Notes under the pieces: generated by a model
The model's database searches: none
Told to the model about the DNA's origin: nothing
What the model saw: the letters and a program-made list of their open reading frames with translations, nothing else
Program-made: the position numbers and the translations under genes
Assembly: GCA_030625885.1 (NCBI GenBank)
Contig: DAOUPZ010000005.1
Span: 1 to 64,000 of the forward strand
Reading direction: 5' to 3'
Length of the DNA: 64,000 nucleotides
Source: Clostridia bacterium
GTDB taxonomy: Bacteria; Bacillota; DAOUPZ01
Shown: in pieces, positions 15,163-50,790 of the stretch
Numbering within the stretch: position 1 is the stretch's first letter
How the letters are laid out: each line of letters starts with the position of its first letter

Positions 15163-15276
15163 TCAAACATTTTCATAAAAAAATCCTGTACATATTTTCC
15201 GTACAGGATCTCCCTTCTTCTTTCCGATACGGGAGGAACGATAATTTCTTACCGAACCCAACGGTTGTTCAATCAT
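15163..15276 (-). CDS. 37-residue leader peptide overlapped by a terminator
   Basis: ATG at 15276, with AGGGGGAG 5 bases upstream. The peptide starts MIEQPLGS, has a basic middle (RSSRIGKKKGDPV) and ends FFYENV. Codons 23-32 also encode the terminator hairpin at 15177-15209. A ribosome translating the leader would cover the hairpin, so expression of the ABC operon may depend on translation or stalling in the leader. The rest of the 15087-15461 gap holds an AT-rich promoter-like stretch (TTGAAT near 15353-15358) and a second small hairpin (15125-15150). Confidence 0.45.
   Translation of the reverse strand: MIEQPLGSVRNYRSSRIGKKKGDPVRKICTGFFYENV
15177..15209 (-). terminator. Leader terminator (attenuator) of the ABC importer operon
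   Basis: On the minus strand ATCCTGTAC pairs with GTACAGGAT around a 9-base loop and is followed by seven T. It lies about 90 bases before the first structural gene, so it must be bypassed for expression. The word GGGAGATCCT occurs both at the start of the hairpin and at the leader ribosome site, and CTCCC at about 15230-15234 can pair with GGGAG just before the hairpin, which offers an alternative fold. Confidence 0.7.
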
Positions 15277-15461
15277 AGGATCTCCCCCTTAGATTAGACA
15301 ACTCGAAGAAAATAAAACAAAAATATTTTTTTGTATGCTCATATTTCTAATTATTCAACTCCAAACAACAATTTCCTGCATCCAGAAAATAATTCTAATC
15401 ATTGCTTTTTATACTGTTATATATGAAAAGGTCACATTTTTCTGTAAAGATACTTCTCAAT

Positions 15462-46225: not shown

Positions 46226-47884
46226 TTATAGAGATAATTGATCTTCATTAATAACAACGCTTTCATGATTACTATTAAGCAAAATTGCATTTACTCTGTC
46301 ATTTTCTTCTTTTTTTAAAATATACTCTAAAACCTTTACGATAAGATTATCCATTTTTACCGGTGTATTTCGCTTAATCTCTTGTAAAGCATATTCATAG
46401 GATTGGGCATCACGATAAGGACGGCTGGAAGTAATGGCATCGAATGTATCCGCAACGCTAATAATCTTAGCCTCCAGGGGAATTTCCTTCTCTTTTAATC
46501 CAAATGGATAACCACTGCCGTCATTGCGTTCATGATGGGCAGAAATGATCGGAATAATATTTTTAAATTGATTGATAGGACTAAGGATATCCACACCTAA
46601 TAACGGATGCTGTTTTATATGGTTATATTCCTCGGGTGTTAAAGAACCCTCTTTATTTAAAATATCATCATTAATGCCAATCTTTCCAATGTCGTGTAAA
46701 AGCGCAGCCTGGTAAAGATTTTCAATTTGTTCTTCTTCAAGGTTTAAATGAGCCGCTATCTTTCGTGATAAATCTGCAACCCTCTCGGAGTGTCCTTCTG
46801 TATAAGGAGATTTTGCCTCGAGCGCTTTGGCAAGAGCAATGACAAGTTCATGTGAATGATTTTCTAACTGGTTAATCATTTTGTCTCGTTCATTAAGCAT
46901 TAAAAATTGTCGAATTGCCACCAATACTAAGAGAAGAATACTGCAAATGCCAACGCCTAGCATAGAAGCAAAATCCCGCGGCCAAAAAACATTGATAATG
47001 ATTAAGCTTGGGACAAATAACATGATTACATAAGGAGCAATATTTAATACTGTTGGCATATTGAAATTTATTTGTCGTGTTTTATCCTCTAAAGAAGAAT
47101 TGTTTAAAGCAGCAATGGCCGCCATACTTAAAAATATAAAACCGATTGGCCAAAGCATATCAAAAATAATCCCTGTTTGATATGCAGCCCGTACTATACC
47201 GGAAACAAATTTAAGTGCTGCGATTGATATACACATTAATCCCAATATAATATAGATAAAGGTAGATAAATTAATTTTACTTTCATTGCTTTCGGTGTAA
47301 TTATAGATCAGAAGAAGGATGTAAGTGATAATATCCAAAATTAATACGGGTTCTATCAAAACAACCAAAAACATGGAATTGCTTGTTCTCCAGAACGTAA
47401 TCAGGAAACTTCCATGGAAATACCATAAAAGTGTAACTATAGTTATCATAAGTATAGCAACATCAAATACAATTTTGTAATGTTGTTTTCTTATTCTTTT
47501 AAGGGGAATGCACCTAAAAAGGCTAATACTCATTAACCAGTAGCTCAGTAAGTATCCTGAATAACCTACAATGTCAATAGGATTTATCTTGTTTAAGAAA
47601 ACTTCTTTATACATCCAAACCATCTGGCTTAAAACCCAAAAAAAACCAGCTAATGCCATTAATTCAAAAGATTTTTGCAGGGGTTTTTGAACGTACTTAC
47701 TCGTATAATAATAGATTACCCCACATATCAAAGGTGCAATTATTTGAGCAATATTAGAATAAATAAATAGTATTCGAGGATTAGATTGTAAGCAGACAAA
47801 CAGAATTATTATAGAAAAAATCAGAAATTTTAGCCATCTATCTAAGTATTTTAATCCTAATATTTTTTCGCCCTTCATTTTCAA
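46226..47884 (-). CDS. Membrane HD-GYP c-di-GMP phosphodiesterase
   Basis: 552 residues. The first 330 residues contain about nine hydrophobic segments, forming a membrane sensor unlike the named MASE domains I know. The C-terminal HD-GYP domain (about 345-520) has HSERVADLSRKIA, the catalytic HDIGKIGI, HP-x-LG, and the GYP motif within HHERNDGSGYPFGL. HD-GYP proteins hydrolyse cyclic di-GMP. Directly upstream lie cheW and a chemoreceptor gene under a c-di-GMP riboswitch, so degradation, sensing and taxis of the same signal may be linked here. Confidence 0.9.
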   Translation of the reverse strand: MKMKGEKILGLKYLDRWLKFLIFSIIILFVCLQSNPRILFIYSNIAQIIAPLICGVIYYYTSKYVQKPLQKSFELMALAGFFWVLSQMVWMYKEVFLNKINPIDIVGYSGYLLSYWLMSISLFRCIPLKRIRKQHYKIVFDVAILMITIVTLLWYFHGSFLITFWRTSNSMFLVVLIEPVLILDIITYILLLIYNYTESNESKINLSTFIYIILGLMCISIAALKFVSGIVRAAYQTGIIFDMLWPIGFIFLSMAAIAALNNSSLEDKTRQINFNMPTVLNIAPYVIMLFVPSLIIINVFWPRDFASMLGVGICSILLLVLVAIRQFLMLNERDKMINQLENHSHELVIALAKALEAKSPYTEGHSERVADLSRKIAAHLNLEEEQIENLYQAALLHDIGKIGINDDILNKEGSLTPEEYNHIKQHPLLGVDILSPINQFKNIIPIISAHHERNDGSGYPFGLKEKEIPLEAKIISVADTFDAITSSRPYRDAQSYEYALQEIKRNTPVKMDNLIVKVLEYILKKEENDRVNAILLNSNHESVVINEDQLSL

Positions 47885-47952
47885 TACCTCTCTAATTCAA
47901 TATGGTTATTCTTATTTCGAAAATTTCTTTGTCTACATATTAATTTTAGGGA

Positions 47953-47996
47953 TAAAACTGAAATAGAACTTTGCAAAGTTCTATTTCAGTTTTATT
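47953..47996. terminator. 44-bp perfect palindrome, terminator after cheW
   Basis: Bases 47953-47974 are the exact reverse complement of 47975-47996 (core GAAATAGAACTTTG and complement) with T-tracts on both sides. It lies about 27 bases beyond the cheW stop codon and separates the cheW unit from the HD-GYP gene. Confidence 0.85.
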
Positions 47997-48023: not shown

Positions 48024-48488
48024 TTATGCCATTTCAACTAATGCTTTCTGCTCAGAAATGGTAAGTATTTTTTGCAGATCCAATATAATAACCAGCCGGC
48101 TATCCACTTTACCGATTCCTGTTAAATACTCTGCAGTAATTCCACCTATCGTTTCCGGAGCGGGTTCAATATGATCTGTGGATATACGCAAAACTTCAGT
48201 TACTTCATCTACAATAATCCCTATATCATTATTCATTATATCAAATACGATAATACGACTGTGATCCGTAAGATGGCATTCCTCCATTGCAAACCGCTTT
48301 TTCAAATCCATAACCGGTATTACCTTCCCTCTTAAACTAATGATGCCTTTTATGAAATCAGCCGTTTGAGGAATTTTAGTGATTTCCATCAACCGAATAA
48401 TTTCCTGAACCTGGGTAATTGGAACGCCATATGTACATTTTTCACCATTGCTTTCTAGCATAAAAACAACCATCTGAATCTCTGCCAT
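48024..48488 (-). CDS. cheW: Chemotaxis adaptor protein CheW
   Basis: 154 residues, the normal length. YGVPITQVQEIIRLMEITKIPQ, FIKGIISLRGKVIPVMDLKKRF and GIIVDEVTEVLRI are the conserved CheW strands that couple receptors to CheA. It lies 31 bases after a receptor gene and presumably serves it. No cheA is in the window. Confidence 0.96.
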   Translation of the reverse strand: MAEIQMVVFMLESNGEKCTYGVPITQVQEIIRLMEITKIPQTADFIKGIISLRGKVIPVMDLKKRFAMEECHLTDHSRIIVFDIMNNDIGIIVDEVTEVLRISTDHIEPAPETIGGITAEYLTGIGKVDSRLVIILDLQKILTISEQKALVEMA

Positions 48489-48519: not shown

Positions 48520-50562
48520 TTACTGAAGTTTAAACTTTTGTACCAGCTCATTTAATTGATCCGCATCTTGTATTAAATTATTTGCCGATGAATTTATTTC
48601 CCCTACTGCCTTACTGGAATGTTCAATTCCCTTGGCAATTTCCTGAGAACCGGCAGCGCTTTGCTCTATTGTAGCAGCAACGCTTTCTATCGCTTTGCTA
48701 ATTTCAGTTGTTGTATTCAAAACATAATCACCGCGTTCTTTCATACTTTTCATAAGCATCGCAAACACATCCGCGGCATCTCCATATTGTTCACCAGTTT
48801 CTACCAAAACAGTATAATCTCTTGTAACATCTTCATTCATAAACTTCAGCAATTCATTAGCATGATCAACCATATTTTTAACACTTCCCTGAACGTTGCC
48901 TGTTAAAGCCTGAATATCTTTTACCGTTGTTGCGGATTCTTCCGCCAGTTTTCGTACTTCGTCAGCTACGACAGCAAACCCGCGTCCTTGTTCTCCTGCC
49001 CGTGCTGCTTCAATGGCTGCATTAAGCGCCAATAAATTCGTTTGATCGGCAATGCCGGCAATGTTTGTTGCCAGTGCAGAAATCTCATCTACTACCTTCG
49101 CTTCCTCAATTGCTTTCTCTAATTTACCTTTAATGTTTTCCGCTAAATCTTTTGCTAAAGCAAAAGATTTTTTGGCATTGCCCTCTACTTCAACTGCTTT
49201 TCCTTTAATCTCTTTGGATTTGTTTTCTCCTTCTACGATTGCATTACCCAATTCATTTAACGCAGCACTGATTTCTTCCTGAGAAGCATTAACTTCTTCA
49301 ATAGAAGCTGAATTTTCCTGCATACCAGCTGCAATTTCTTCCGTGGAAGCAGAAGCCTCAGCTACATTTGCTGACATGTCTTCAGCGAGTACCGAAAGCT
49401 GCTGGCTGGAAGAAGCCGTTTCTCCTGCCGTATTGGATACTTGGCCAATAATCTCTCTTAAATTATGCACCATTTTCTTAAATGCTTGTCCTAATTGTCC
49501 AATCTCATCTTGTGTTTTTATCATAACTTCTGCTGTTAAGTCACCATTGCTGATAATTTCTGCAGTTGTTGTCAATTCCTTAATCGGTGCTATTAGATAA
49601 CGTGTAAAACCGATTACAATCAGAATGATTAAAATTGCAGCCACAATAACCAGCAACAACAGAAAATGACGCATTTGATTAACATCTTTAAAGAAAAGGG
49701 CATCATCATTGGGTGCCGTAACACCAATAGACCATCGCGCTGTTTCAATGGGCGCATAACCCAAATGCTTTTCTACCCCTTGATAGATATCAAAATCATT
49801 TCCTGTTTTGCCATCCACCATATCCTGTGTAATCTGTTTAGAATGATCATTATCGGTAATAAAAGCGTTCTCCGCTTCATTAAGCACAATTTCTTGTGAA
49901 GGATGCGCTAAAAAGATTCCCTTTTGGTCAATCAGATAACCATAACCATTAGCCCCGATTTTAATACCTGAAATATCTTGGGTAATTTTTTCCAAAGAAA
50001 CACTGGCAACTAAAGCACCGGTTATTTGTCCGTTCGTACCTTGAAGTGGTGTAGCAATAAAAAAAGCCGGTTGGTTGGTGATTTTTGAGGTTGCAACATC
50101 AGAGACAAAAGTATTCCCTTTTAAAGCCTCTTGAAAATAATGACGTTGGCTGACATCAGTACCAATTGCAGAAATACTATTATGATGGTCAATCATTCCT
50201 GCTGTATTAACAGTAAACAACGATTCATAGTGAGTAGAACAGCTGGCTTGCTCATGAAGATAATGATTAATCTCTTCATCTGTAGTTAGCATGGGTGGGG
50301 TTAACGTCATTCCTTTAACGTCATCTTCCATTGCACCAATCCAATCATTAAGTCCTTTAGCTGTATCTTGAGCTCTTGCCAATAAAATTTGATCCATACT
50401 GCTTAAGAGCGCTTTCTGTGCTTTTTTGTAACTTAATAAACCTGCAATACATAATGGAATAAGGGATATTATCAAACAAACCACCATAAGTTTAGTACCT
50501 AAACTTATTTTTCGTGTGCTTTTTACCTCTTTTTCTTTTTTTTCTAACATTTTTCTCATCAT
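48520..50562 (-). CDS. Methyl-accepting chemotaxis protein under a c-di-GMP riboswitch
   Basis: 680 residues. Membrane segment 24-43, extracellular double-Cache domain about 45-295 ([17 protein letters not shown]; lacks the RxWY amino-acid motif of the other receptor here), second membrane segment 299-319, HAMP about 320-372, and a full signalling domain with the CheW/CheA-binding tip [20 protein letters not shown]. The ligand is unknown. Followed by cheW. Its 5' region carries a c-di-GMP-I riboswitch and terminator, so its synthesis should depend on the second messenger. Confidence 0.95.
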
Positions 50563-50654: not shown

Positions 50655-50695
50655 ATATAAAAAGATAAATCTGCAAGGTTAACAAGCAGATTTAT
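50655..50695 (-). terminator. Terminator of the c-di-GMP riboswitch
   Basis: On the minus strand ATAAATCTGC pairs with GCAGATTTAT around an 11-base loop and is followed by CTTTTTAT. It starts 5 bases after the aptamer and ends about 90 bases before the receptor gene. Confidence 0.8.
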
Positions 50696-50699
50696 ATGA

Positions 50700-50790
50700 C
50701 TAACTTGCAACCCGACAGCCATAGCATATTGCTTTAGGCTCGTAGCTTTGCGTCCTTACCTTTCGATAAGTTTGCCTATTTATGAATTTA
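50700..50790 (-). ncRNA. Cyclic di-GMP-I (GEMM-I) riboswitch aptamer
   Basis: Read on the minus strand the order of conserved blocks is complete: AGGCAAAC, GAAA tetraloop after CTTATC, GGACGCAAAGC, the CCTAAAG tetraloop receptor strand, GCTATGGCTG and GGGTTGC. These are the signature parts of the c-di-GMP-I aptamer. It lies upstream of the receptor gene with an intrinsic terminator between, so c-di-GMP would act on transcription. Whether ligand turns the gene on or off cannot be read with confidence. Confidence 0.93.

Follow-up and report, generated by a model that had tools for sequence, protein, structure and literature searches.

A predicted OFF-type c-di-GMP-I riboswitch upstream of a chemoreceptor–cheW operon with a neighbouring HD-GYP gene

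Introduction

Does c-di-GMP set the amount of a chemoreceptor and its CheW adaptor through an RNA switch in this Clostridia bacterium, and does the adjacent gene for an enzyme that destroys the ligand close a local control loop? Both ideas come from an initial annotation of the window, by which we mean the whole 64,000-nt stretch of DNA analysed here. It proposed that the HD-GYP protein lowers c-di-GMP and that the riboswitch then resets receptor levels. The locus proved to be real and correctly named: aptamer, terminator, gene for a methyl-accepting chemotaxis protein (MCP), cheW, palindrome and HD-GYP gene were all found. The loop stood only in part. No other genome of the class was present in the set searched, and comparisons were made through paralogues and a survey of the phylum.

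Results

Scanning the whole window with the Rfam c-di-GMP-I (GEMM-I) covariance model (RF01051), a check that had been proposed for the minus strand, returned a significant full-length match at 50703-50786 on that strand (model positions 1-87), scoring 78.6 bits (gathering threshold 35) with an E-value of 8.9e-14. All the conserved blocks claimed for this aptamer were present, GACGCAAA among them, and the interval first noted, 50655-50790, corresponds to the aptamer plus its terminator. Model position 11 matters for ligand selectivity between c-di-GMP and cGAMP variants (PMC9262584, PMC9481103). The window aptamer carries the ligand-contact G at this position, within AUAGGCAAAC, and a cGAMP reading was rejected on this ground. 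The element is thereby confirmed as a predicted c-di-GMP sensor, with ligand binding presumed from the sequence match.

As the initial annotation had recognized, an intrinsic terminator lies 3′ of the aptamer (50659-50693, minus strand; sequence and folding). It comprises an 8-bp stem, AAATCTGC/GCAGATTT, followed by the U-run ATCTTTTT, and the folding of 50655-50702 reached a z-score of -3.8 against shuffles. The terminator stem (50667-50693) is independent of the aptamer 3′ strand, which instead complements the terminator loop. This strand, GGUUGCAAGU (50703-50712, minus), includes the ligand-pairing C and would form the 5′ half of an antiterminator; the 3′ half, GCUUGUUAACC (50677-50687, minus), covers the loop of the terminator and the inner part of its 5′ arm and is retained in sister riboswitches. 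The duplex has a predicted energy of -14.0 kcal/mol (p = 0.02 against shuffled platforms) and is included in the ligand-free minimum-energy fold of the window leader. In partial transcripts of 112-116 nt the antiterminator was favoured over the aptamer by 4-5 kcal/mol; at 116 nt, where the 3′ arm of the terminator is incomplete, the respective ensemble values were -30.2 and -25.8. Once the terminator was complete, at 124 nt, it stood at -33.8 and the antiterminator at -32.9, about 1 kcal/mol apart. Such near-equality is the balance that a kinetic switch requires. Because the terminator is slightly the more stable at equilibrium even without ligand, the case for an OFF switch rests on kinetics.

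Ten platforms of the genome were tested for pairing between the aptamer 3′ strand and the platform, and most outperformed their shuffles, with p-values that are not independent, the sisters being related: apart from the window (contig C3), these included the riboswitches on contigs C31 (0.04) and C30 (0.025) and the sisters C37:98317 (0.003), C26:68240 (0.014) and C37:16775 (0.012). At C37:16775 both strands have changed relative to the family (ACUGCAAAA/UUUUGCAGU) and pairing has been maintained, its own pair (-14.1) being stronger than cross pairs with sister strands. No antiterminator pairing was detected at C26:5525 (p = 0.97 against shuffles), and at C37:102893 and C26:62405 the same comparison gave no significant support. 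A sigma-70 promoter scan produced 29 sites where 25 were expected, indistinguishable from chance, and a sigma-D-like promoter pattern gave no match.

Past the riboswitch terminator follow, as described in the initial annotation, a chemoreceptor gene and cheW, both on the minus strand. The first (48520-50562) encodes a 680-residue MCP of Pfam architecture dCache_1-HAMP-MCPsignal; the second (48024-48488; 154 residues; Pfam CheW, 6.5e-38) starts 31 nt past the MCP gene with a GGAGG of its own. The genome has four CheW domains, of which three are stand-alone, the window cheW being one, and the fourth lies inside CheA. MCPsignal domains, CheW domains and CheA are thus all encoded, and one gene cluster holds CheA, CheB, CheD, a sigma factor and a YcgR-type PilZ protein, which makes it probable that the organism is chemotactic. 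Searching the genome contigs with the window MCP as query recovered distant receptors only. Elsewhere, on contig C1 (L060:367-2106), we observed an MCP that shares 85% DNA identity with the window MCP over the signalling half and has a different sensor half, at the sequence level a case of receptor domain shuffling.

The HD-GYP gene (46226-47878, minus; 550 residues; Pfam HD_5, 1.4e-40) is predicted to encode a membrane c-di-GMP phosphodiesterase. Its start is the ATG at 47878; the listed open reading frame begins at a TTG at 47884. The metal-ligand residues and GYP motif, E/H/HD/H/HH/GYP/D, are retained (EGHSER, HDIGK, HP, HHERNDGSGYP and ADTFDAI in the translation). The palindromic terminator noted past cheW was recovered by folding at 47952-47995: a perfect 20-bp stem of -23.5 kcal/mol (z = -10) with A/U runs flanking both sides, so that termination is probably bidirectional. 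The gap between cheW and the HD-GYP gene therefore contains a terminator, and on account of the palindrome we reject the HD-GYP gene as a simple third gene of the riboswitch operon. Most likely the gene is transcribed from a promoter of its own and its product works on a shared c-di-GMP pool; the genome yields 31 GGDEF hits over the cut-off and 20 HD-GYP hits. The protein would then be functionally upstream of the switch, yet outside riboswitch control.

In total, the 3.1-Mb genome holds 12 c-di-GMP-I riboswitches and 28 MCPsignal matches. Five of the riboswitches precede MCPs: those of the window, C37:98317, C37:16775, C37:72703 and C26:68240; at the last of these an HD-GYP gene comes next. 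Three precede c-di-GMP enzymes, namely an HD-GYP protein on C31, an HD-GYP protein behind a small gene on C11 and a GGDEF-HD-GYP protein at C37:102893; the others are found before a Tad-type pilus operon (C30), before a pstSCAB-phoU operon (C26:62405), on C10 and at C26:5525. Chemosensory or c-di-GMP first genes thus lie behind eight of the 12, compared with 2.4% of all genes. A same-strand HD-GYP gene lies within 5 kb downstream of five of the 12 riboswitches where 0.2 were expected (P about 1e-6, or 3e-5 with the C3/C31 pair counted once). This linkage is not accidental.

Several of these riboswitches have features of their own. An A at the canonical-G position is a signature of cGAMP-binding variants. 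At model position 11 we found A in three of the 12 aptamers (L004, C26:62405; L005, C26:5525; L008, C11:77592) and C in one (L002, C10), so ligand specificity within the genome may be mixed. The C26:62405-62487 riboswitch (L053:6406-6488) has a GC-rich terminator, and a complete pstSCAB-phoU operon follows at a distance of about 500 nt, past a small ORF; c-di-GMP control of phosphate uptake is possible at this locus. About 370 nt past the orphan riboswitch C26:5525 there is a sub-threshold SAM riboswitch match (L005:1953-2033; 36.4 bits, gathering threshold 44.4). On C10 (L002:1316-1480, minus) only about 8 nt separate the end of the aptamer from a strong AAGGAGG, which suggests that the platform is likely translational; the 54-residue ORF behind it had no Pfam match. 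The top-scoring c-di-GMP-I riboswitch (87.7 bits; in locus L049, C30:33000-42149) precedes the Tad-type pilus operon, with a prepilin peptidase and a secretion ATPase, and its platform too looks like an OFF switch, which would be unexpected for an adhesive pilus.

The window HD-GYP protein has two paralogues, on C31 (80% amino-acid identity) and C18 (77%). Between the window and C31 the riboswitch and platform share 85% of nucleotides over 172 bp, the HD-GYP genes likewise 85% over 1582 bp, with a dN/dS of 0.20. The two blocks are adjacent at C31, where the MCP-cheW segment is absent; in the window MCP-cheW and the palindrome stand between them. These common blocks imply that the association of riboswitch and HD-GYP gene predates the present gene order, and by sequence the window gene and the C31 locus go back to one riboswitch/HD-GYP cassette, through either insertion of MCP-cheW in the window or its loss at C31. 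The C31 aptamer, with 60.8 bits, several non-standard pairs and several consensus features lost, may be weakened. The C18 paralogue (L064:4075-5700, plus) is preceded by a riboswitch of another class, Moco/Tuco (L064:3793-3912, plus; 64.1 bits, E = 7.8e-15). Its gene starts 163 nt past this aptamer, with a terminator in between. Homology between C18 and C31 extends no more than about 10 nt upstream of the start codon, which indicates that the coding unit alone is common to them.

There are 17 matches to the Moco/Tuco model (RF01055) in the genome, 16 of them over the cut-off. Genes for aldehyde:ferredoxin oxidoreductases, a NuoF-like gene and genes of ABC transporters are among the targets. 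Signalling genes lie behind five of the 17: apart from the C18 HD-GYP gene these are three MCPs (C26:7999, C26:17974 and C9:66268) and a PAS-GGDEF-HD-GYP gene, also on C9, with the riboswitches at L051:7788-7906, L051:17766-17884, L208 (C9:66145-66266) and L206 (C9:17296-17417, minus), respectively. In all five a terminator-like hairpin follows the aptamer. The probability of five signalling targets in 17 by chance is about 4e-5, a value uncorrected for local clustering. P3 is absent from the Moco/Tuco aptamers inspected, and its absence was linked to the tungsten cofactor by Regulski et al. 2008 (PMC2408646); by this feature these RNAs are probably tungsten-cofactor sensors. The window itself also holds a P3-lacking Moco/Tuco riboswitch (15201-15320, minus). 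The run of genes behind it, from 15176 down to about 11341, resembles a metal ABC transporter with permease, ATPase and binding protein.

Across the phylum, c-di-GMP-I riboswitches occurred in 298 of 399 genomes. The comparison covered 68 usable loci, each from a different genome, in a sample that favours high-scoring aptamers. The first gene encodes an MCP in eight of them (0.23 expected). In ten it encodes a protein with GGDEF, HD-GYP or both, and HD-GYP first genes number eight (0.24 expected). The orders riboswitch-HD-GYP, riboswitch-MCP-cheW (L137) and riboswitch-HD-GYP-cheW-MCP (L138) recur in other families, and one locus (L101) has the order riboswitch-GGDEF/HD-GYP-MCP.

Discussion

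Aptamer, terminator, complementarity, gene order and paralogy are established at the level of sequence; the direction of the switch and its physiology are predictions from them. We hold it quite probable that the receptor-adaptor operon is governed by a transcriptional OFF c-di-GMP-I riboswitch. Without ligand, nascent GGUUGCAAGU would pair with GCUUGUUAACC, the antiterminator would form and RNA polymerase would read into MCP-cheW. With c-di-GMP bound, the 3′ strand would be held in the aptamer, the terminator would fold, and output of receptor and CheW would drop. High c-di-GMP, the sessile condition, would thus withdraw one chemoreceptor and a dose of the coupling protein, to be restored when phosphodiesterases win.

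A close model is Cd1 of Clostridioides difficile, an OFF switch upstream of the flgB operon with an antiterminator that takes up the ligand-pairing C (PMC9262584); in that organism every functional class I switch is OFF (PMC6366702). The window shares with Cd1 a class I aptamer, a terminator stem separate from the aptamer, an antiterminator that would use the aptamer 3′ strand and sequester its ligand-pairing C, and a motility or chemotaxis output (PMC9262584, PMC6366702). Cd1, however, drives a flagellar operon and not a receptor-cheW pair, and its binding and direction have been measured, whereas those of the window are predicted. The reading that we rank second has c-di-GMP raise MCP-cheW expression, as at Bc1-mcpE of Bacillus thuringiensis, where PMC11218506 reports an ON switch in the MCP 5′ UTR with dual regulation by dual terminators and trapping of the ribosome-binding site. 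This precedent, in the Bacillus cereus group, likewise joins a c-di-GMP-I riboswitch and terminators to an MCP, and on that account direction cannot be deduced from the controlled gene; the marginal preference of the ligand-free equilibrium for the terminator also speaks for an ON switch. The architecture argues otherwise. A pilM-type ON platform requires the aptamer 3′ strand inside the terminator stem (PMC9262584); the window stem excludes this strand, which is complementary to the loop instead. We therefore consider an ON switch quite unlikely. The accessible text describes no cheW or HD-GYP gene with Bc1 (PMC11218506), and the window leader has a single terminator of OFF architecture where Bc1 is reported to have two. 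Pairing of such riboswitches with MCP genes is already known, and the riboswitch-MCP-cheW operon adds a case.

What, then, of the loop? A meaningful link between HD-GYP gene and riboswitch holds up: five of the 12 riboswitches show it, and C31 has the two side by side. Chance neighbourhood in a genome rich in MCP, HD-GYP and GGDEF genes is very unlikely; these are numerous for 3.1 Mb, but the excess over expectation persists with C3 and C31 taken as one, and the duplicated riboswitch and HD-GYP cassette common to both largely refutes it. The claim that the loop is local is not supported, since all the GGDEF and HD-GYP proteins counted above draw on the same pool; nor is the claim that the window HD-GYP gene, behind the palindrome, is under the riboswitch. 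Nor does a reset follow. An OFF platform directly on a phosphodiesterase gene predicts positive feedback, a latch in which high signal means less phosphodiesterase and which would sharpen a choice between two states; for a homeostatic reset the platform would have to be ON. It is unlikely, if less so than chance, that read-through past the palindrome brings the whole locus under the riboswitch, with positive feedback in which low c-di-GMP would raise the phosphodiesterase and so fall further. In its favour are the C31 riboswitch directly before a paralogous HD-GYP gene, the eight surveyed loci with HD-GYP as first gene, the L138 and L101 orders and the purifying selection on HD-GYP coding; against it stand the perfect terminator-like palindrome, the common pool and the loss of consensus features in the C31 aptamer, which leaves control uncertain even there. 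The evidence supports a shared-pool arrangement with inherited riboswitch/HD-GYP linkage rather than a local reset loop.

Riboswitch control of c-di-GMP enzymes has been called rare (PMC6366702). C31 and ten of the 68 surveyed loci have such an enzyme as the first gene, whereas the window HD-GYP gene lies past a terminator. The riboswitch before the C18 HD-GYP gene, which has a terminator, belongs with the P3-lacking variant of the Moco/Tuco (Wco) class, RF01055 (PMC2408646). The targets known for this class serve to make or transport the cofactor or are enzymes that use it, but here five of 17 riboswitches precede chemoreceptors or c-di-GMP enzymes. PMC2408646 mentions neither chemotaxis nor GGDEF, and the literature searched contained no report that pairs Moco riboswitches with genes for chemotaxis or c-di-GMP turnover; cofactor-riboswitch control of receptors or c-di-GMP enzymes appears to be unreported.

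Of the three close HD-GYP paralogues, that of C31 follows a c-di-GMP-I riboswitch, that of C18 a Moco/Tuco riboswitch and that of the window a riboswitch-MCP-cheW operon. We think it somewhat probable, judging from these arrangements, that chemoreceptors and c-di-GMP enzymes of this lineage are wired directly to both c-di-GMP-I and P3-lacking Moco-type (probably tungsten-cofactor) riboswitches, that metal-cofactor status sets c-di-GMP and receptor content, and that the window locus is one product of exchange in this shuffling of riboswitches. For the window, c-di-GMP would set the dose of one receptor and of extra CheW, an RNA link from the sessile/motile decision to the composition of the chemosensory array. 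An HD-GYP family behind a c-di-GMP riboswitch would let the signal act back on its own level, an arrangement that has been described as rare. Of greatest value is the finding that paralogous c-di-GMP enzymes, and receptors too, are placed behind two classes of riboswitch: if this is confirmed, the availability of tungsten or molybdenum would steer both motility and c-di-GMP via RNA.
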